Origin: a virus
Virus record (IMG/VR): IMGVR_UViG_3300025759_010702
Span: 1-24,844 of that record
DNA: 24,844 bases
Reading direction: 5' to 3' (one strand)
The notes beneath the pieces were generated by a model. It made no database searches and was not told the origin of the DNA. It saw only the letters and a list, made by a program, of their open reading frames with translations. A program made the translations under genes and the position numbers. This document shows positions 1 to 20,711 of this stretch, in pieces. Each line of letters starts with the position of its first letter. The first letter of the stretch is position 1.

Positions 1-186
1 TAAACCAGCCGCATCAATACCAAGATCTAAACCTGTTGTGGCGCCGTAATCACCTGCTGCAGTTTCTGCAATATCAATAGAAAATTCTCCAGAAAGTGTT
101 GGCCCTGCAGTGGCCGTTGTGTCTTCAGCAAATGCAGCACCGGCAAAGATTGCTGCAATTCCTGTCGTGATGAGTAGATTACGCAT
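1..186 (-). CDS. Exported protein, N-terminal part only (runs off the window)
   Basis: The reading frame is open from ATG at 186 to the window edge (62 codons). It begins MRNLLITTGIAAIFAGAAFA, a typical Sec signal peptide with a probable cleavage site after AFA. A stretch rich in T, A, G and D follows (SGEFSIDIAETAAGDYGATT), which resembles the start of outer-membrane porins of alphaproteobacteria. An AAGGAAA ribosome site lies just upstream. The C-terminal part is missing, so the barrel cannot be confirmed. A secreted or outer-membrane role is inferred from the signal peptide and composition alone. It is the last gene of the minus-strand series seen here, 26 nt downstream of the small membrane protein gene. 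Confidence 0.7.
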   Translation of the reverse strand, partial: MRNLLITTGIAAIFAGAAFAEDTTATAGPTLSGEFSIDIAETAAGDYGATTGLDLGIDAAGL

Positions 187-443: not shown

Positions 444-479
444 TTAGTTTATCCTTTTTTTTATTTTAGCGCCACTTTT

Positions 480-638
480 CTGTTGCTAGGTAAGTGACCA
501 ACCCCCTTAATTATGCTGCTAGAGCAAAACCAGAAGGTGCAAAATTATCATTTGCATTTGTAGTTTTTGGCTGAATAACGTAGGCCAACACGGTGAACTC
601 CACTCAACTATTCCGTCCGTCGATCCTAATTCGCCCCC
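480..638 (-). ncRNA. ssrA: Permuted tmRNA, coding (5') piece
   Basis: On the minus strand the piece starts GGGGGCGAATTAGGATCGAC, the conserved tmRNA 5' end with the D-analogue GGATCGAC. Its first seven bases, GGGGGCG (638-632), pair with CGCCTCC next to the ACCA end of the acceptor piece at 788-850, giving a full 7-bp acceptor stem across two separate segments. A hairpin TTGGC/GCCAA precedes the tag frame (511-555). The 3' end is uncertain; a weak GTTG/CAAC hairpin lies 20-50 nt after the tag stop. The acceptor segment is encoded upstream, so this is the circularly permuted arrangement known in alphaproteobacteria and some cyanobacteria. Its role is rescue of stalled ribosomes and tagging of unfinished proteins with SmpB. 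Confidence 0.88.
511..555 (-). other. tmRNA proteolysis-tag reading frame
   Basis: From the GCA resume codon at 555 the frame reads ANDNFAPSGFALAA followed by TAA. The beginning ANDNFA and the end ALAA match the alphaproteobacterial tag pattern; the terminal LAA is the ClpX recognition signal. The central PSG replaces the EE found in many alphaproteobacterial tags. This is the strongest single clue to host lineage in the window. Confidence 0.88.
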
Positions 639-769
639 ATCATAAACACACGAATAAGTAATGGTCCAAATCTATAACTTTTATATGGATTGCCACTATT
701 AAATCTAAATTCACCCCATTGAAAAGGTGTTCCTTTAAACCAACTTATCCAGTGCCAATCCCAATTCAT
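626..769 (-). CDS. Possible 47-aa aromatic-rich protein inside the tmRNA intervening segment
   Basis: An ATG frame starts in the segment between the two tmRNA pieces and stops at TAG (628-626), a few bases into the coding piece. It begins MNWDWHWISWFKGTPFQW and contains five Trp, six Phe and two Tyr, with the later part FGPLLIRVFMMGAN. The composition looks protein-like rather than like random AT-rich sequence. No convincing ribosome site precedes it, and the intervening segment should be cut out when the tmRNA matures. It could be a real small phage protein, or a spacer that happens to be open. I do not recognise a family. Confidence 0.4.
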   Translation of the reverse strand: MNWDWHWISWFKGTPFQWGEFRFNSGNPYKSYRFGPLLIRVFMMGAN

Positions 770-787
770 ATTTGATCCATGTGTTTA

Positions 788-850
788 TGGTGGAGGCGTC
801 GGGAATCGCACCCGAGTCCGATCCGTCTTTATTTTGTTTCAACGTCCACT
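788..850 (-). ncRNA. ssrA: Permuted tmRNA, acceptor (3') piece
   Basis: The minus strand ends in a canonical tRNA-like 3' half: the T arm CTCGGGTGCGATTCCCGA, then CGCCTCC, discriminator A and an encoded CCA (790-788). The 3' strand pairs with GGGGGCG at 638-632. The piece lies upstream of the coding piece in transcription order, separated by about 149 nt, the hallmark of permuted two-piece tmRNA. The preceding AAAGACGGATCGGAC resembles the region before the T arm in bacterial tmRNAs. The 5' end near 850 is inferred from the promoter. Maturation would require host RNase P and RNase E-like cuts. Confidence 0.88.
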
Positions 851-855
851 TTTTA

Positions 856-884
856 TATATAATACATATTAATAAAAATGGCAA
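856..884 (-). promoter_or_regulatory. Sigma-70 promoter for the tmRNA
   Basis: TTGCCA (884-879), a 17-nt spacer and TATATA (861-856) precede the acceptor piece by a few bases. Five of six positions match the -35 consensus. It places the transcript start near 850 and lets the tmRNA be made independently of kdsB. Confidence 0.6.
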
Positions 885-902
885 TACAAAATAAAATATA
901 GT

Positions 903-3496: not shown

Positions 3497-3525
3497 ATTA
3501 TAATAGGATCTGGCCCGAATGTCAA
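3497..3525 (-). promoter_or_regulatory. Perfect sigma-70 promoter for the glycine-zipper gene
   Basis: TTGACA (3525-3520), exactly 17 nt, TATAAT (3502-3497). All twelve positions match consensus. The -35 box overlaps the TGA stop (3524-3522) of the upstream sulfotransferase gene. Confidence 0.85.
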
Positions 3526-4160
3526 CAAAAATATTTTCCCCAAACTTCATAATCTTCTTTATACATTTCTTTTATCATTTTCAATTCCTTTTTCTTATTT
3601 TCAAAAACAGGTTTTTCTTGAGTCTTACGAACGGTTGCTTTTCTTATTGCAAGCGGAATATCAGAGCGCCTGCTTACTTTTGATATAATTGGAAGTAATA
3701 TATCGTCTATATTATTTGAATTAATCACTTTTGTGTATATACTTGGATTGGATCCTATTTGACTGCATTGTGTATCTGTATGAATTTTAATATTTTCATC
3801 TTCTCTTGCATAGTCAATATTGTAAATAAATTTGGAGAAGGTGTCTAGTGTATCTCTTAAATCACCGTTATTTCTAAATTGAACTCTGTCTTTGTATGCA
3901 CTAAACAATCTATCTACAGGATCTCTTACAATTGCAATTCTTATAGGATATTGTTTTAATATATTTTCTGTAAGATCTTCTACATTATATTCTTTCCACA
4001 AACCTTCTTCTAAAAGGTTTTTTCTTGCCGAGCGTTTATTAAATTTTCCTATATATGGATAACCTAAATACTGTATTATTGTTGTTGAACCGCATTTAAG
4101 ACTTGGCGCAACCATAATTTTACTATTACTTGTATATGTAACACATTGTATATTATTCAT
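3522..4160 (-). CDS. Sulfotransferase (Sulfotransfer_2-like, PAPS-dependent)
   Basis: Enzymes of this kind move sulfate from PAPS to a hydroxyl of a glycan or other acceptor. The 212-aa product shows the 5'-phosphosulfate loop APSLKCGSTTIIQYL (about 18-32) and the 3'-phosphate motif IVRDPVDRLFSAYKDR (about 77-92, the RDPxxRxxSxY signature), then HTDTQCSQIG (127-136), matching the H-x-x-x-Q segment of the family. Start: ATG at 4160 gives an ATGA overlap with the preceding gene; a GTG at 4166 is possible. The acceptor is unknown. The phage's other sugar genes suggest sulfation of a surface polysaccharide, which is inference. Confidence 0.85.
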   Translation of the reverse strand: MNNIQCVTYTSNSKIMVAPSLKCGSTTIIQYLGYPYIGKFNKRSARKNLLEEGLWKEYNVEDLTENILKQYPIRIAIVRDPVDRLFSAYKDRVQFRNNGDLRDTLDTFSKFIYNIDYAREDENIKIHTDTQCSQIGSNPSIYTKVINSNNIDDILLPIISKVSRRSDIPLAIRKATVRKTQEKPVFENKKKELKMIKEMYKEDYEVWGKYFC

Positions 4161-4390
4161 TTCCACGATCTTTCAACGTAATAAGCACCTTCAGGCTTTT
4201 TCATCGCTGCCATTAATTCAAAATACATGTGCGAGCTCATCACTATAAGATCGTGCACTTGTTGTTTTTCATTCCATTGACGAATGTATACTTCGGAGTC
4301 ATCTATAAAAACTTGAATATCTTCATAACGACCTTCGTCGTCAAGAATTGTAGTAACAGTTTCGTCCCAATCAAATTCATTAGTGAACAT
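4157..4390 (-). CDS. Conserved-looking small acidic protein (77 aa), unknown
   Basis: The product begins MFTNEFDWDETVTTILDDE and includes VFIDDSEVYIRQWNE and LIVMSSHMYFELMAAMK, a pattern of short beta strands and one helix. I recall similar small proteins in T4-like cyanophages but cannot name a function. It overlaps the next gene by an ATGA and the previous gene by 11 nt, so it belongs to a tight operon between dps and the sulfotransferase gene. Confidence 0.75.
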   Translation of the reverse strand: MFTNEFDWDETVTTILDDEGRYEDIQVFIDDSEVYIRQWNEKQQVHDLIVMSSHMYFELMAAMKKPEGAYYVERSWK

Positions 4391-4658: not shown

Positions 4659-5099
4659 TTATTCAGTATGAGATGTAATCTGCCATTGCATTTTCTCATG
4701 AAAATCAATACGATCTTCAAGAAAACTTGCAACTCCAATTTGATTTAATTCATCAGCCATACGATGTGCTTCTCTTAATTCAGTAAGAAATCTATCATTA
4801 TCTTGTCCTAGGCGCACGAACATAAAGTTTGAACTTGGAATAGAAAGCTCGTCTGAAATAACAGTCATTTCAGAAAATCTTTTTAAAGATCCTGGTGCAA
4901 ATGCGTTAAGGGCACGAATATGTTCTGCATAATCATCGATAGACTCAAATACACTTTCATAAAATTCAGAAAAGAAATCGTGATATTGTTTAAAGTTTGG
5001 GCCGGTTACGTTCCAATGATAATTATGAGATTTTAAATATAAAGAAAAAGCGGAAGAAAGTATAACTTTCATTTTTTCTATTAAAATTTCGTTTTCCAT
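4659..5099 (-). CDS. dps: Dps/ferritin-like protein
   Basis: Dps proteins form 12-mers that oxidise and store iron, shield DNA and remove peroxide. The 146-aa product has the family's core: YLKSHNYHWNVTGPNFKQYH (21-40) followed by FESIDDYAEHIRALN (51-65). The ferroxidase ligands at the subunit interface are all present with the E. coli spacing: His28, His40 (+12), Asp55 (+15), Glu59 (+4). The long basic N-terminal tail of E. coli Dps is absent, so direct DNA wrapping is less likely. A TATAAATA late-promoter box and TAGGAGTT ribosome site precede it, just after a terminator, which points to late expression, perhaps to protect or condense DNA or to manage iron. Confidence 0.93.
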   Translation of the reverse strand: MENEILIEKMKVILSSAFSLYLKSHNYHWNVTGPNFKQYHDFFSEFYESVFESIDDYAEHIRALNAFAPGSLKRFSEMTVISDELSIPSSNFMFVRLGQDNDRFLTELREAHRMADELNQIGVASFLEDRIDFHEKMQWQITSHTE

Positions 5100-5126: not shown

Positions 5127-5134
5127 TATTTATA
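5127..5134 (-). promoter_or_regulatory. T4-type late promoter box before dps
   Basis: TATAAATA lies on the minus strand 28 nt upstream of the dps start and immediately after the terminator at 5137-5164. It is a perfect match to the T4 late -10 box used by gp55-type sigma, and gp55 is encoded in this window. Confidence 0.7.
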
Positions 5135-5164: not shown

Positions 5165-5271
5165 TCTCTATCTGTTTGTTTCGATGTACAGCACCCGGCT
5201 AGCTTTCCATTCGGTACTAGCGACTCACCGACCATCCAAAAGCTGCAGACTAATGAATGGATTTTTCTATG
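5165..5271 (-). ncRNA. Structured 3' domain of the tRNA/ncRNA transcript, with H-type pseudoknot
   Basis: No gene is present. On the minus strand CCATTC (5260-5255) pairs with GAATGG (5212-5207), and AGCTTT (5244-5239) pairs with AAAGCT (5206-5201). The order a-b-a'-b' with a' and b' directly adjacent is that of an H-type pseudoknot with coaxial stems. A 4-bp CGGT/ACCG hairpin may sit between. The domain ends at the terminator. Whether it is a separate RNA or the 3' part of the element starting near 5800 cannot be decided here. Confidence 0.5.
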
Positions 5272-5345
5272 TCTCGGTGAAGAGATTCGAACTCCTGACC
5301 CTTTGGTCCCAAACCAAATGCGCTACCAGACTGCGCTACACCGAG
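5272..5345 (-). tRNA. tRNA-Pro (TGG)
   Basis: Clover-leaf with acceptor CTCGGTG/CACCGAG, discriminator A, D arm GCGCAGTCTGGTAGCGC, anticodon loop TTTGGGA (anticodon TGG) and T arm with TTCGAAT. CCA is not encoded. It reads CCA/CCT and other Pro codons by wobble. Confidence 0.95.
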
Positions 5346-5349
5346 TAGA

Positions 5350-5426
5350 TGGTGCCCTCAGAGAGACTCGAACTCCCGACCCCGAGATTACAAATCACGT
5401 GCTCTACCAATCTGAGCTATAAGGGC
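5350..5426 (-). tRNA. tRNA-Thr (TGT)
   Basis: Acceptor GCCCTTA/TGAGGGC, discriminator A and an encoded CCA (5352-5350). D arm AGCTCAGATTGGTAGAGC, anticodon loop TTTGTAA (anticodon TGT), T loop TTCGAGT. The anticodon stem has one T-T mismatch. It lies 4 nt from the 22-bp stem of the neighbouring RNA element. Confidence 0.94.
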
Positions 5427-5430
5427 GCAA

Positions 5431-5545
5431 ACTCTGCTTTCAATAAGATAACCAAGGAATCGAACCTTGCTACCATCTGCAAATGGCCTTCGGATGTTGC
5501 AGCACCCTAAGTGAGGACCAATCGTTACCTTATTAAAAGCAGAGT
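5431..5545 (-). ncRNA. tRNA-like element: 22-bp stem, T arm and two hairpins with complementary loops
   Basis: The arms 5545-5524 and 5452-5431 pair for 22 continuous base pairs, two of them G-U. Inside, abutting the 3' strand, is a canonical T arm: CAAGG, loop TTCGATT, CCTTG (5469-5453), including the conserved G53-C61-type closing pair. Two further 5-bp hairpins, GGGTG/CATCC (5507-5492) and GCCAT/ATGGT (5487-5472), carry 6-nt loops CTGCAA and TTGCAG that are exact complements, so they can kiss. TTGG after the 5' strand could act like the D-loop GG. No anticodon arm is present. It is not a normal tRNA and not the tmRNA; I do not know its family. Confidence 0.7.
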
Positions 5546-5599
5546 CCATATATTCTTGCCCGACCTTGTTTACTAACGACGCGCAGGCTACGTCAAACG

Positions 5600-5795
5600 A
5601 TAAATCTCTTTAATCCATTTTTACCACTTTAGTGGTTGAGGGTTTGGAACCTCTCATTACCGTTCTGAATATCTGGTTTTCACGTCACCGGTATTTCACG
5701 GGCGGTATATTCACCAGATATAAAGGATTGAGGTTCGTTACCGTCATGCTTTTTTACCCGAAGGTGATAGCGCCTTGGCCAATTCACTCATTCCT
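5600..5795 (-). ncRNA. Structured RNA domain with nested helices at the 5' end of the tRNA transcript
   Basis: No ORF fits. Paired elements on the minus strand: ACC-UUCG-GGU tetraloop hairpin (5765-5756); GAACCTC/GAGGTTC (5736-5730 with 5653-5647), extended by GGT/ACC across a symmetric internal loop; inside it ATATCTGGT/ACCAGATAT (5721-5713 with 5677-5669, 9 bp); hairpin ACCAC-TAAA-GTGGT (5636-5623); and AATCC (5729-5725) complementary to GGATT (5616-5612), which would form a pseudoknot. It starts about 10 nt after a sigma-70 promoter and continues to the tRNA-like element and tRNAs. The boundary at 5600 is approximate; pairing of 5546-5600 is unclear. Confidence 0.6.
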
Positions 5796-5805
5796 TATAT
5801 TATTA

Positions 5806-5834
5806 TATATAACTGATTCCATATAGAATGTCAA
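5806..5834 (-). promoter_or_regulatory. Sigma-70 promoter of the structured RNA and tRNA unit
   Basis: TTGACA (5834-5829), 17 nt including GGAATCAG, then TATATATAAT (from 5811). The -35 overlaps the TGA stop (5833-5831) of the preceding small gene. Confidence 0.8.
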
Positions 5835-5992
5835 CTATTATTTATGCAAATTGCTTTTTCTTTTTGTGTGAATGCGGTTTCAAGAACAGCTGCATTAATA
5901 TTACATTGCATCTCTGTTTGATACAAATCATAGTAAGTCATTTTAACTTCGTCCGATCCAAACACGCCGTTTAGTATAACTAAGATCCACAT
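5831..5992 (-). CDS. Small protein of the MWIL...AICI family (53 aa)
   Basis: It begins MWILVILNGVFGSDEVK and ends KEKAICINNS. The protein at 6488-6676 has the same pattern (MWILVFIYIY ... QAICIYKE), so the two are probably paralogues. A short hydrophobic N-terminus followed by a polar domain with Cys residues suggests a small exported or membrane-anchored protein. Start: ATG one base after the stop of the upstream gene (TAATATG). Its TGA is embedded in the next promoter's -35 box. Function unknown. Confidence 0.65.
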   Translation of the reverse strand: MWILVILNGVFGSDEVKMTYYDLYQTEMQCNINAAVLETAFTQKEKAICINNS

Positions 5993-5993
5993 A

Positions 5994-6215
5994 TTACAAC
6001 ACCTTTTTCGCGTATTTGATTACTTGCTTATCAAGAGTTGTTAAATTTTTCATTGAACCAGTTTCAGCCATTTCTTCTCCTACGCGACTAAATGCGTTAA
6101 GAATTTCTAATGGAACATTCATATTCTCACCTGATTCAGAGAACCACATCATGCGGCGACCAAAGCTAGCGATAGCACGTTCCTGTGGAGTTTGTTCAAA
6201 AAATGTCAAGTTCAT
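5994..6215 (-). CDS. Small protein (73 aa), unknown
   Basis: It starts MNLTFFEQTPQERAIASFGRR and is mostly helical with balanced charge, without membrane segment or known motif. An AAGGAAT ribosome site and its own early promoter (6245-6273) precede it. It is the first gene of a two-gene unit with the MWIL-type protein, ahead of the structured RNA. Confidence 0.7.
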   Translation of the reverse strand: MNLTFFEQTPQERAIASFGRRMMWFSESGENMNVPLEILNAFSRVGEEMAETGSMKNLTTLDKQVIKYAKKVL

Positions 6216-6244
6216 GGTGATTCCTTTTTTCCATTGATATAATT

Positions 6245-6273
6245 ATACTATCTGATTCGCAAGAGAATGTCAA
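6245..6273 (-). promoter_or_regulatory. Early sigma-70 promoter
   Basis: TTGACA (6273-6268), 17 nt containing GCGAATCAGA, TAGTAT (6250-6245). It shares the GAATCAGATAG block with promoters at 8264-8292 and 13853-13881. Confidence 0.75.
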
Positions 6274-6276
6274 TAG

Positions 6277-6495
6277 TTATTTTTGTAATGAAAAGAATTT
6301 ATGCAAGAAATAAAACCAAAATCCATTTACTATTGGTTCAACTATTGCATCAACCGCGGCAAGCTCAATTGCAGCGCCAGTAATAAGATAATTACATGTA
6401 GCTGCAATAACAATATGTCCAACCGTATATACGATTGCTAAATAAAACGAACTGTTTCCAAGCGTGTTAAATATTCCTCTTTTAAACTCACTCAT
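6277..6495 (-). CDS. DUF2061-like small membrane protein
   Basis: The 72-aa product has an N-terminal basic segment (MSEFKRGIFNTLG), then two transmembrane helices around residues 17-40 and 45-65, and ends YFLHKFFSLQK. The order of features, with a T/C-rich first helix, YLITG turn, an acidic residue in the second helix (VEPIV) and a final YFLHKF, matches DUF2061 proteins, whose function is not known. It overlaps the downstream end of the gene at 6488-6676 by 8 nt. Confidence 0.65.
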   Translation of the reverse strand: MSEFKRGIFNTLGNSSFYLAIVYTVGHIVIAATCNYLITGAAIELAAVDAIVEPIVNGFWFYFLHKFFSLQK

Positions 6496-6676
6496 TTTTT
6501 GTTTCCTTATATATGCAAATTGCTTGTGAACCTTCTAAAAAATAGCCAGCATTTCCAGATAATTTTTTTCCTAAACTTTCTCTTGCAAAAAAACATTTAT
6601 GCATACTATTAAATGAACCGTATTTAATGACATACGGCTCATTTGCGTAAATGTATATAAAAACTAAAATCCACAT
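6488..6676 (-). CDS. Small protein of the MWIL...AICI family (62 aa), paralogue of 5831-5992
   Basis: It begins MWILVFIYIYANEPYVIKYG and ends EGSQAICIYKETKNE. Start and end match the protein at 5831-5992; the centre (FNSMHKCFFARESLGKKL) is different. The N-terminus may be a signal or anchor. It overlaps the DUF2061-like gene. Small proteins with this MW-hydrophobic-...-CI layout are common in T4-like marine phages as far as I recall, with no known role. Confidence 0.6.
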   Translation of the reverse strand: MWILVFIYIYANEPYVIKYGSFNSMHKCFFARESLGKKLSGNAGYFLEGSQAICIYKETKNE

Positions 6677-6692
6677 ATATAAGTATTAGGTA

Positions 6693-6810
6693 TTATCCTT
6701 GTCCTCTATATTTTTTATAGCTACGTTTTTTTTGATTTGTTCATAGAAGAAAATTTGATATTGCGGCGGCCAATTGACGTTTTCTTATTATTTCTTTTAC
6801 CTTTTAACAT
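6693..6810 (-). CDS. Small very basic protein interrupted at an A8 run (frameshift or sequence error)
   Basis: From ATG at 6810 the zero frame encodes 29 residues (MLKGKRNNKKTSIGRRNI...NKSKKT) and stops at TAG (6723-6721), directly after eight consecutive A (6733-6726 on the minus strand). If one A is skipped, the frame continues ...KKRSYKKYRGQG and stops at TAA (6695-6693), giving a 38-aa Lys/Arg-rich protein with a natural-looking tail. A GAGGAT ribosome site precedes the ATG. The coordinates span the full-length version; the short form is 6721-6810. Programmed slippage and a homopolymer sequencing error are both possible. Confidence 0.45.
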
Positions 6811-6818
6811 TATTATCC

Positions 6819-7307
6819 TCACATCTTACTAAAATTTTCAAGTAAAGGTTTTTCTACTTTTTTTCGATATTTGCAGCCGATAAATGATGATACAAAATAA
6901 CCTTCTGGAATTTTATATGCAATTTTTAACGGTTCACCTAATGAGTCTGATCTTTTATTTTCTCTTGCAGTGGCAAGAACAGTTTGATCGTTTTCCCAAA
7001 TAAAATTCCACCATTCTTCCGAGTCCTTCCATTCACGATTAAAGGCTTCTTCAACCCAATCATGTCTTTTATTAATATGAGCTCGTTCAACAGGGTTTTC
7101 ATCTTTGCGAGTTGGAATTCTTTCAAAGTTCACAGATTTAAAAGAATCAAGCGCGTCTTGTGTAATACCAATCACACGCCAATTCAATTCATTAAATGTT
7201 GCAGTTAAGCTTGAGAAAGCTCTATACAAATACTTCTTATCGGCATGCTTTGCCTTCTGCATGGCAAGAAATATTGCAAAGAACTCATCTCTTTTGACTT
7301 TATCCAT
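6819..7307 (-). CDS. Uncharacterised protein (162 aa)
   Basis: The ATG at 7307 (MDKVKRDEFFAIFLAMQKAK) is chosen because a longer open frame would run back into tRNA-Leu. The protein is rich in charged and aromatic residues; the middle holds HINKRHDWVEEAFNREW and SEEWWNFIWENDQTVLATA, and the C-terminus KIPEGYFVSSFIGCKYRKK. No family is recognised, and no membrane or signal segment is visible. Located 15 nt after tRNA-Leu, it probably shares the tRNA transcript. Its stop is followed at once by the ribosome site of the small basic protein gene. Confidence 0.75.
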   Translation of the reverse strand: MDKVKRDEFFAIFLAMQKAKHADKKYLYRAFSSLTATFNELNWRVIGITQDALDSFKSVNFERIPTRKDENPVERAHINKRHDWVEEAFNREWKDSEEWWNFIWENDQTVLATARENKRSDSLGEPLKIAYKIPEGYFVSSFIGCKYRKKVEKPLLENFSKM

Positions 7308-7322
7308 AATCGCCTTTTCTAA

Positions 7323-7409
7323 TGGTGCCCTCTGCCGGACTCGAACCGGCACGCTCATATGAGCAAGAGATTTTAAGTCTCTGGTGTCTACCTATTCCAC
7401 CAAGAGGGC
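7323..7409 (-). tRNA. tRNA-Leu (TAA)
   Basis: Class II tRNA: acceptor GCCCTCT/AGAGGGC, discriminator A, encoded CCA, anticodon loop CTTAAAA (TAA), long variable arm GCTCATATGAGC and T loop TTCGAGT. It reads UUA, a favoured Leu codon in this AT-rich genome. Confidence 0.96.
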
Positions 7410-7421
7410 ATTTATTTTTTT

Positions 7422-7498
7422 TGGCGACCCCTGAAGGATTCGAACCCTCGACCTAGTGCTTAGAAGGCACTTGCTCTATCCTGCTGAGCTAAGGAGTC
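7422..7498 (-). tRNA. tRNA-Arg (TCT)
   Basis: Acceptor GACTCCT/AGGGGTC with one T-G pair, discriminator G, encoded CCA, D arm AGCTCAGCAGGATAGAGC, anticodon loop CTTCTAA (TCT), T loop TTCGAAT. It reads AGA/AGG. Confidence 0.96.
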
Positions 7499-7508
7499 AT
7501 TTAAAATT

Positions 7509-7585
7509 TGGTGCTCCCACTTGGACTTGAACCAAGGACCAAAGCGTTATGAGCGCTCTGCTCTGACCAACTGAGCTACAGGAGC
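7509..7585 (-). tRNA. tRNA with CAT anticodon (Ile2 or elongator Met)
   Basis: Acceptor GCTCCTG/TGGGAGC with two wobble pairs at the inner end, discriminator A, encoded CCA, anticodon loop CTCATAA, T arm CTTGG-TTCAAGT-CCAAG. The 3' half resembles the AUA-reading tRNA-Ile2 (lysidine-modified CAU) more than elongator Met, and AUA is frequent in this genome, so Ile2 is the better guess. Confidence 0.93.
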
Positions 7586-16086: not shown

Positions 16087-16212
16087 TTATTTTTTCTCTT
16101 TATTCAACAAGTTCCCTAACCAAGAAGTTACGTCATCACAAGGGTCATCAATTATCGGTTTTTGAGTTTCTTCATTATTATTTTCTTTTGATTTTCGTCC
16201 ATCCAAAACCAT
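16087..16212 (-). CDS. Small protein (41 aa) overlapping the DUF1289 gene
   Basis: An AAGGAG ribosome site 8 nt before the ATG at 16212 lies inside the DUF1289 gene, and the frame runs 61 nt out of phase with its 3' end. It starts MVLDGRKSKENNNEETQKP and ends VTSWLGNLLNKEKK. The stop (TAA) is one base from the phosphomannomutase ATG (TAATATG), a spacing also found at 5992. The strong ribosome site and coupling make it likely to be translated. Function unknown. Confidence 0.5.
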   Translation of the reverse strand: MVLDGRKSKENNNEETQKPIIDDPCDDVTSWLGNLLNKEKK

Positions 16213-16331
16213 TCAGAAATCTCCTTCTGAGTTCTTTTGCAACCTATACAAACATTTGTAAAAGGATCAATTTTACAAATGTTTATACATGGATTGATGA
16301 GTTGCGGTGGTTTCTTGTTTTTTCTCCTCAT
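16152..16331 (-). CDS. DUF1289-family small cysteine-rich protein
   Basis: The 59-aa product has Cys15, Cys19, Cys28 and Cys31 in the pattern C-x3-C-x8-C-x2-C (NPCINICKIDP, VCIGCKRT), then EISEWFWMDENQKKIIMKKL, which is the DUF1289 signature (PCxxxCxxD...CxGCxRTxxEIxxW). The cysteines may bind a metal. DUF1289 proteins are widespread in proteobacteria; their role is unknown. ATG at 16331 is the only in-frame start. With the -10 box ending at 16341 the 5' leader would be about 3 nt, so translation may be leaderless. Confidence 0.8.
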   Translation of the reverse strand: MRRKNKKPPQLINPCINICKIDPFTNVCIGCKRTQKEISEWFWMDENQKKIIMKKLKNR

Positions 16332-16374: not shown

Positions 16375-16701
16375 TTATCCTTGTTTTGACATTATATTAT
16401 CATACCAATTAGGATTTTTATTTTTTAAAATCATAAGAGGAGAACCATTGATACCGTCTTGTTGGCGTGCTTCAACATATTCTTCAACAGTAAATGATTT
16501 GCAAAGCTCTTTTACGAATTTTGCTTTTGTAAATGGTCCTTTATATTTAAATCGAGCGATAAACAGTTCTTTTGGCATACCTACTCGAGATGGGTGGCAA
16601 TTAGGTGCAACTTGATCCCATGTAGGTTGACCTTCGTATGTACCTGTGTACTCAAGATATCCACCGTGATATGTGAATTTTGATTTGTCGAACTGAGTCA
16701 T
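16375..16701 (-). CDS. Conserved-looking phage protein (108 aa), unknown
   Basis: It starts MTQFDKSKFTYHGGYLEYTG, contains KELFIARFKYKGPFTKAKFV and KSFTVEEYVEARQQDG, and ends NWYDNIMSKQG. The pattern is alpha/beta and soluble; I have the impression of a small protein family shared by T4-like phages, but cannot name a function. It has an AAAAGGAAT ribosome site and an early promoter (16735-16763), and stands first in the minus-strand direction next to the divergent structural gene. Confidence 0.7.
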   Translation of the reverse strand: MTQFDKSKFTYHGGYLEYTGTYEGQPTWDQVAPNCHPSRVGMPKELFIARFKYKGPFTKAKFVKELCKSFTVEEYVEARQQDGINGSPLMILKNKNPNWYDNIMSKQG

Positions 16702-16724
16702 GACTGATTCCTTTTTTCATTCCT

Positions 16725-16732
16725 TATAAATA
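16725..16732 (+). promoter_or_regulatory. T4-type late promoter box before the structural gene
   Basis: TATAAATA on the plus strand, 45 nt upstream of the virion protein gene at 16777. It lies immediately next to the -10 box of the opposing early promoter (16740-16735). Confidence 0.75.
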
Positions 16733-16734
16733 TA

Positions 16735-16763
16735 TACATATCATATTTAGAAAGAAATGTCAA
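16735..16763 (-). promoter_or_regulatory. Early sigma-70 promoter, minus strand
   Basis: TTGACA (16763-16758), 17 nt, TATGTA (16740-16735). It drives the 108-aa protein gene and overlaps the territory of the plus-strand late promoter. Confidence 0.7.
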
Positions 16764-16776
16764 TAGGAAAGATGTT

Positions 16777-17262
16777 ATGATAACAAATTTTATGTCGCCA
16801 TTAGAGTTTGTAGTTACAGTTAGCAGATTGCCAAATGTACAATTTTTTACACAAAACGTTGTCATACCGTCTCTTAACTTGCAGTTGGTCGACCAACCCA
16901 CTCCATTTAAGTTAATTCCTGTTCCAGGAGATAGAGTATCATATGGTGATTTACCTCTATCATTTATTATTGACGAATCAATGAACAATTATATTGAAGT
17001 TTTTAACTGGATAAAAGCTTTAGGTTTCCCAGAAAACTTTACACAATACGACACTTTAAAAGATAGTAATGATGGATTACTAACAGACATATCTATAATA
17101 ATTATGAACAGCCATAAAAATCCTAATATTCAAATGGATTTTGTTGATTGTTTCCCCTCGAATTTGTCCGATGTTCAGCTTGATACTACACAAACGGATG
17201 TTGTGTATCCTCAAGCAACTGTGAATTTTATATTTAGGGATTTAAAAATAACACAGTTATAA
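16777..17262 (+). CDS. Virion structural protein, probably tail-tube or baseplate related
   Basis: The 161-aa product begins MITNFMSPLEFVVTVSRLPN and continues VQFFTQNVVIPSLNLQLVDQ, then PTPFKLIPVPGDRVSYGDLP and MNNYIEVFNWIKALGFPENF. This matches, from memory, small structural proteins of T4-like marine phages with a tail-tube-like (gp19-like) beta fold: residues VSRLPN, the IP-x-L segment and NWIKALGFP are typical. Exact T4 counterpart is uncertain (tail tube, tube-associated or baseplate). A late box and AGGAAAG ribosome site (5 nt from the ATG) precede it, as expected for a virion protein. The nuclease gene follows with coupled translation. Confidence 0.7.
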   Translation: MITNFMSPLEFVVTVSRLPNVQFFTQNVVIPSLNLQLVDQPTPFKLIPVPGDRVSYGDLPLSFIIDESMNNYIEVFNWIKALGFPENFTQYDTLKDSNDGLLTDISIIIMNSHKNPNIQMDFVDCFPSNLSDVQLDTTQTDVVYPQATVNFIFRDLKITQL

Positions 17263-17763: not shown

Positions 17764-17792
17764 TTGACATTTCTCTATTTCTGTGATAAAAT
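17764..17792 (+). promoter_or_regulatory. Early sigma-70 promoter of uvsY
   Basis: TTGACA (17764-17769), 17 nt ending TGTGA, TAAAAT (17787-17792). It begins directly after the TAA of the nuclease gene. Confidence 0.82.
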
Positions 17793-20152: not shown

Positions 20153-20181
20153 TTGACATTTATGATATTTAGTATTAGAAT
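20153..20181 (+). promoter_or_regulatory. Early sigma-70 promoter of gp55
   Basis: TTGACA (20153-20158), 17 nt, TAGAAT (20176-20181), 33 nt before the gp55 ATG, which has a GAGGAGAG ribosome site. Confidence 0.82.
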
Positions 20182-20213: not shown

Positions 20214-20711
20214 ATGGCTCGAAGAGCAAAACGTAACTACGTCAATAATCCTGATCTTTTAGCGGCTCTTATAGAGTATAAAAAACAAGTACGAGATGCA
20301 GAAGATCAAGGAGATGAACCGCCAAAAGTTCCTGACTATATTGGAGAATGTATATATCAAATATCGAATCGTTTGGCAACAAAACCAAATTTCTCAGGTT
20401 ACACTTATAAAGACGATATGATTATGGACGGTATTGAAAACTGTCTTCTTTATATCAACAATTTTGATCCAAACAAATCATCAAATCCGTTTGCATATTT
20501 TACACAAATTATTTGGTATGCTTTTCTTAGACGTATTGCAAAAGAAAAGAAACAAATGTACATTAGATTTAAATCATCTCATAATATGGTTGCTCAAGGA
20601 GCTACATACGAATCAAATGAAGTGCAATTGCATCTAAATACAAACGCTGATTATATTAATAGCTTTATTGAAGATTTTGAAGAAAAATTAAATAAGAATA
20701 AAGATAAATGA
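20214..20711 (+). CDS. 55: Late-transcription sigma factor gp55
   Basis: Gp55 replaces sigma-70 on host RNA polymerase and directs it to TATAAATA late promoters, with the sliding clamp as activator. The 165-aa product (T4: 185) begins MARRAKRNYVNNPDLLAALI and has DDMIMDGIENCLLYINNFDP and NPFAYFTQIIWYAFLRRIAK, the sigma region 2 core that contacts polymerase and melts the -10 box. It is followed by gp47 with a 4-nt overlap (ATGA). Late boxes are present in this window (5127, 14373, 16725), so the sigma and its targets can be paired. Confidence 0.93.
   Translation: MARRAKRNYVNNPDLLAALIEYKKQVRDAEDQGDEPPKVPDYIGECIYQISNRLATKPNFSGYTYKDDMIMDGIENCLLYINNFDPNKSSNPFAYFTQIIWYAFLRRIAKEKKQMYIRFKSSHNMVAQGATYESNEVQLHLNTNADYINSFIEDFEEKLNKNKDK

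Follow-up and report, generated by a model that had tools for sequence, protein, structure and literature searches.

Why would a marine T4-like phage place what appear to be an early promoter and a late promoter, pointing in opposite directions, on the same few base pairs? The question is raised by the strand switch of a 24.8-kb virus stretch from IMG/VR (the window, by which we mean the whole stretch analyzed). Longer open reading frames (ORFs) to the left of about 16.7 kb lie mostly on the minus strand and those to the right on the plus strand, and the sign of the GC skew flips near 16.5 kb, at the strand switch, with divergent ORFs on both sides. Both promoters lie in the space between the first genes of the two blocks (Table 1). 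We think it probable, going by sequence features, that the site is a bidirectional promoter with its left face read by a sigma-70-type polymerase and its right face by the gp55-polymerase.

Table 1. Features of the junction and of the flanking gene blocks (window positions)
Feature	Position	Strand	Remark
Left-block genes		-	topoisomerase II subunits, cytidylyltransferase, HAD/PMM-like gene, orf108
orf108	16375..16701	-	first of leftward block; phrog_22119, 3.7e-5
Late promoter box TATAAATA	16725..16732	+	T4-type; -13 to -6 of rightward late start
Segment predicted to be melted by both open complexes	16726..16739	both
-10 TATGTA of leftward early promoter	16735..16740	-	TGA before it (extended -10)
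-35 TTGACA of leftward early promoter	16758..16763	-	directly upstream of the tail gene's ribosome site
Tail-tube/gp3-like gene	16777..17262	+	first of rightward block; phrog_45, 3.9e-32; cyanophage homologues annotated as gp3
Separate early promoter before uvsY	17764..17792	+	TTGACA-17-TAAAAT
gp55 late sigma factor gene	20214..20711	+	phrog_234, 4.1e-61
Right-block genes		+	tail-tube/gp3-like, SNase-like nuclease, uvsY, uvsW, gp55, gp47, gp46, DNA polymerase

Promoter elements of the junction

The rightward promoter consists of the late box TATAAATA, 44 nt upstream of the tail-tube/gp3-like gene, where an earlier note on this DNA had placed it. It has no -35 element, the plus-strand hexamer GACTGA at 16702-16707 matching TTGACA at one position of six. 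We rejected the number of boxes in the window as evidence, since 5 were found and 5.01 expected. The 218-kb relative G001 contains 38 copies, with 11 in the reversed control; 28 of the 38 sit 5 to 120 nt before an ORF on the same strand, as delimited by a crude ORF caller, and all 17 copies left of the junction are on the minus strand and 18 of the 21 on its right on the plus strand. Upstream of the tail gene, the box persists down to lineages with about 30% tail protein identity. Its ATAAATA core precedes this gene in 71 of 80 distinct upstream regions; of the remaining 9, 8 had a start picked inside the gene and show the box further up, which leaves a single upstream region (L123) of the 80 without an ATAAATA box before the tail gene. 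Judged by its sequence, the late box is real. Another copy, at window positions 5127-5134 on the minus strand, lies 27 nt before a gene for a ferritin-like/Dps-like DNA-binding protein (4659-5099, minus strand; PF00210, 4.1e-19) and may be a late promoter internal to the left block.

The same note had seen a minus-strand -10 element beside the late box, and this -10 does have a TTGACA 17 nt away. This -35 is ideal, as is the spacer. The -10 itself, TATGTA, matches TATAAT at three of six positions; the A at -11 is present and the T at -7, a conserved position in T4-like early promoters (PMC1524935, as excerpted), is absent, and no TANNNT occurs 15 to 19 nt from this -35. The early half of the window's own site therefore looks weakened in sequence. 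Promoters of the form TTGACA-16..18-TANNNT are a real class in the window, with 12 sites found and 1.82 expected, several of them just before gene starts (e.g., those of uvsY, gp55, and DNA polymerase). Because of its TATGTA, the minus site of the junction is excluded from these 12, and a simple promoter scan misses it since the rule requires the -10 to end in T. The combination of late box and minus promoter was found once, and 0.02 times per Markov-shuffled window. As uvsY has an early promoter of its own, the rightward replication genes could be expressed independently of the late box. A perfect sigma-70-type promoter (TTGACA-16-TATAAT with TG) is located in the gap between uvsW and gp55 at 20108-20081 on the minus strand; it points antisense into uvsW, and an early promoter on the plus strand is found nearby at 20153-20181.

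Conservation and variation of the junction

Relatives were collected in several ways. Retrieval with the tail protein gave 19 loci and, in a second listing, 80 of 288 relatives, and retrieval with the orf108 protein gave 73 loci. Twenty-five representatives were chosen from protein-retrieved loci only, with a tail identity of at least 42.5%. The minus -35, at a match of at least 5/6, is present in 18 of the 25, and 16 of these 18 have TANNNT at spacer 17, a number reached in none of 5,000 permutations. This -10 is missing from two of the 18, namely the window's own sequence and L148, whose minus -35 seems to match by chance. Viral contigs were also scanned for the box followed by TGTMAAYAGGA, with the -10 left free; at least 120 stretches matched, and 92 distinct sites are among the matches listed. 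Among these listed matches, TANNNT stands at spacer 17 in 28 of 32 with a tail gene downstream and in about 18% of the 60 without one. When the upstream regions of 28 divergent tail genes were selected for the box and the minus -35, with the -10 disregarded, 25 had TANNNT at a spacer of exactly 17 nt; shuffling the interval with box and -35 fixed gave an expectation of 2.15, and 0 of 5,000 shuffles reached 25.

The set of 80 distinct upstream regions includes loci found with the pattern, which held the -35 and the ribosome site, so that in this set the -10 alone is unselected. A strict interlock test is passed by 47 of the 80. The gap from -10 to box in these 47 is -3 (22 cases), +1 (15), +2 (4), +3 (2), -4 (2), -1 (1), or +11 (1); 46 of them thus have a gap in the range of -4 to +3 nt, and in the -3 class the box and the -10 have three base pairs in common. 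The spacer is 17 nt in 44 of the 47. Comparison of these sequences supports the view that the interlocked geometry is conserved across divergent relatives. Interlocked composites also occur before a second late gene, that for the gp2-like DNA end protector (phrog_429, 1.9e-57), in L217, L249, and L284. In G001 there is one composite at the tail junction and two elsewhere, which are at chance level (three in reversed controls) and were rejected as evidence.

Could the overlap reflect compact packing without regulation? In that case the two promoters would happen to share a short space in an inherited order, and early transcription would be ended globally. We regard this as possible, at well below even chance. 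The intergenic space of the window is only 75 bp. The -35 is not recognizable in 7 of the 25 representatives, and by sequence some relatives have lost the early half. Other, nonoverlapping orders exist at the same junction among more distant phages, which retain both an early and a late promoter there; in lineages such as L025, L031, and L064 the early and late elements stand back to back. No divergent junction is present in S-PM2, DLP6, S-CAM7, and Pelagibacter phage Mosig, in which the tail gene follows the capsid gene in tandem, with one gene in between in S-PM2 and DLP6. However, the overlap is retained where the minus side has more room, as in L015, L100, and L212, and it is retained across relatives in which nearly all of the spacer between the elements has diverged in sequence. 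Six of 40 hand-listed loci have a further late box on the minus strand, a short way downstream, with which their minus-strand genes could continue to be expressed late. Such a second TATAAATA on the minus strand, making divergent late boxes, is seen near the composite of G001 (76088-76109; locus L011) and near those of L015, L100, and L212.

Another explanation, to which we give the same limited credit, concerns the window virus in particular: its early half may be decaying, a one-nucleotide change with respect to its relatives having broken the -10, with orf108 weakly expressed or expressed from elsewhere. Consistent with this, TATGTA lacks the T at -7, TANNNT is present in all 12 of the window's other TTGACA promoters, and the near relative L007 has TATATT at this position. 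Relatives of the L100/L212 type have TATAAT. On the other hand, five other contigs carry exactly the same intergenic sequence, and the -35, the spacer, the extended TGN, and the orf108 ORF are all intact. A tblastn search of the named phages with orf108 gave no match.

It is also conceivable that the early promoter acts as a directional lock, keeping host polymerase facing left and so blocking premature use of the late box by sigma-70. TATAAATA resembles TATAAT and lies inside the footprint of the early promoter. We consider this improbable: with no -35 on the plus strand, leakage from the late box should be low anyway, and other late boxes in the relatives have no such partner. That the elements are chance resemblances with no promoter function, as the chance-level frequency of TATAAATA in the window and the poor -10 might suggest, is very improbable given the rarity of the composite in shuffled windows, and is refuted for the group by the conservation among relatives.

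A predicted shared melted segment and its possible role in the early-to-late change

In excerpts of the T4 literature, the late box occupies positions -13 to -6 (PMC1524935) and the bubble of gp55-polymerase spans -12 to +2 (PMC7892883). On this basis the rightward late start is predicted at about 16738 and the gp55 bubble at 16726-16739. The bubble of sigma-70 polymerase spans -11 to +2. The leftward early start, placed on the assumption of 7 bp between the -10 and the start, is predicted at about 16728, with the bubble at 16739-16727. The predicted starts are thus 10 bp apart, and the two bubbles nearly coincide. Start spacings of about 10, 18, or 23 bp are common in bidirectional promoters of E. 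coli, according to the available part of the account (PMC12825309), and the predicted spacing here matches their 10-bp class.

The geometry suggests the following sequence of events. Early in infection, the sigma-70-type polymerase of the host would use the minus-strand -35 and -10 and transcribe orf108 and then further leftward. In the late phase, gp55-polymerase would read TATAAATA and transcribe rightward into the tail gene, presumably assisted by a gp33/gp45-like clamp system. Both polymerase forms are predicted to open nearly the same 13 to 14 bp, so only one could be present at a time and occupancy should be mutually exclusive; a strong late complex would then repress the early direction by occupancy. 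The interlocking described in the earlier note holds, and its reading as a built-in switch is partly supported: the two promoter classes overlap, the predicted bubbles nearly coincide, the geometry is conserved, and gp55 is encoded in the window. The window's own -10 is degraded. The Pfam profile of the sliding clamp gp45 (PF02916) has no match in the 24.8-kb fragment and none in the relatives G002 and G005, and in G001 it has a weak match under the cut-off. A search of four records for the MotA domain (PF09114) gave no match and is uninformative because the controls were equally silent.

In bidirectional promoters of E. coli, turning on one direction strongly can be enough to repress the other through competition for RNA polymerase alone; the five promoters tested had a basal activity too low for competition (PMC12825309, available part). 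The activated case is the one that a clamp-activated late promoter would resemble. The elements, their conserved spacing in relatives, and the gp55 gene are seen in the sequences; we infer the start sites, the competition, and the role in the early-to-late change. A function as an early-to-late switch is plausible. The stronger proposal is that selection keeps a melted segment common to two opposed sigma factors as a self-acting commitment switch, in which the arrival of gp55-polymerase would, at one and the same site, start the virion genes and silence the early operon. We give this proposal well under even odds, in view of the weak -10, the lost -35 elements, the extra minus-strand boxes, and the back-to-back and tandem layouts; simple packing or inheritance is possible. 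T4-like phages have other ways of ending early transcription.

Temporal control in T4-like phages is usually ascribed to phage proteins that alter the host polymerase. If early and late promoters do compete for the same melted bases, this would add a positional, DNA-encoded element to that control. The parts are known, namely, T4-type late boxes, early promoters, and bidirectional promoters; what appears to be new is the interlocked two-sigma form. Like the bidirectional promoters of E. coli, the phage site has overlapping elements on opposite strands and divergent starts, at a spacing that is common there, and the exclusive polymerase binding and the repression upon activation of one side described for them are the same as those proposed here. 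They are, however, pseudo-symmetrical with a shared -10 (PMC12825309, available part), whereas the phage site sets a sigma-70-type -35/-10 against a gp55-type box. Its two faces, being of different sigma type, would be active at different times, and such a site, if it works as proposed, would extend bacterial bidirectional promoters to two different sigma factors. T4 likewise has late boxes at -13 to -6 before late genes, sigma-70-type early promoters, and gp55, but the excerpted accounts (PMC1524935, PMC2988020, PMC7892883) contain no early/late interlock on opposite strands. The A2c/A2b-A3 region of phi29 also brings early promoters and a late promoter together and serves early-to-late switching; there, in the portion of the account consulted, the proteins p4 and p6 activate and repress simultaneously (PMC3100819), whereas the agent proposed here is the late form of the polymerase itself. 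No description of an interlocked sigma-70/gp55 promoter was found in the available parts of the open-licence literature. Relatives with gaps of -3, +1, and +2, and with and without the -35, offer natural variants for comparison.

Minus-strand cargo and other features of the record

What does the leftward promoter serve in other phages? Among the 40 hand-listed loci, the first minus-strand ORF is identifiable in 39, and these make up 11 protein clusters. With 16 members, the largest is the early-type gene for topoisomerase II gp39, and orf108 occupies the first place in the window and L007 only. The composite is thus constant, and what varies is the cargo on the minus strand. A tree of 38 tail proteins, from which 8 of the 39 listed loci are absent (merged with identical upstreams) and to which 7 noninterlocked ones were added, requires 13 label changes for 8 groups, the minimum possible being 7.

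In many lineages the first minus-strand ORF encodes 15 to 42 residues with the motif DDPCDDCTHWIG, and several gp39 genes in such lineages have an early promoter of their own. Homologues of this micro-ORF lie near the composite in 28 of the 47 interlocked upstream regions, usually as an early ORF served by the early promoter; the copy in the window (16152-16331, minus strand) has no PHROG match. The tiny DDPCDDCTHWIG protein might itself be active in the early program. Weak look-alikes (E 3-5) occur in or near gaps between annotated genes in Roseobacter phages CRP-4 and CRP-6, and another weak one at the start of a CRP-2 gene. A metal-binding role is doubtful because the cysteines of CxxC are replaced in these roseophage look-alikes.

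At the left end of the window lies a permuted two-piece tmRNA (468-888, minus strand; Rfam alpha_tmRNA, 108 bits; tmRNA_permuted, 122 bits), for which ARAGORN gives the tag peptide ANDNFAPSGFALAA. Its permuted alpha type suggests an alphaproteobacterial host. The minus strand further carries five tRNA genes (Pro, Thr, Leu, Arg, and Met; 5271-7585) and a sulfotransferase-family gene (3522-4166; PF03567, 2.1e-10).
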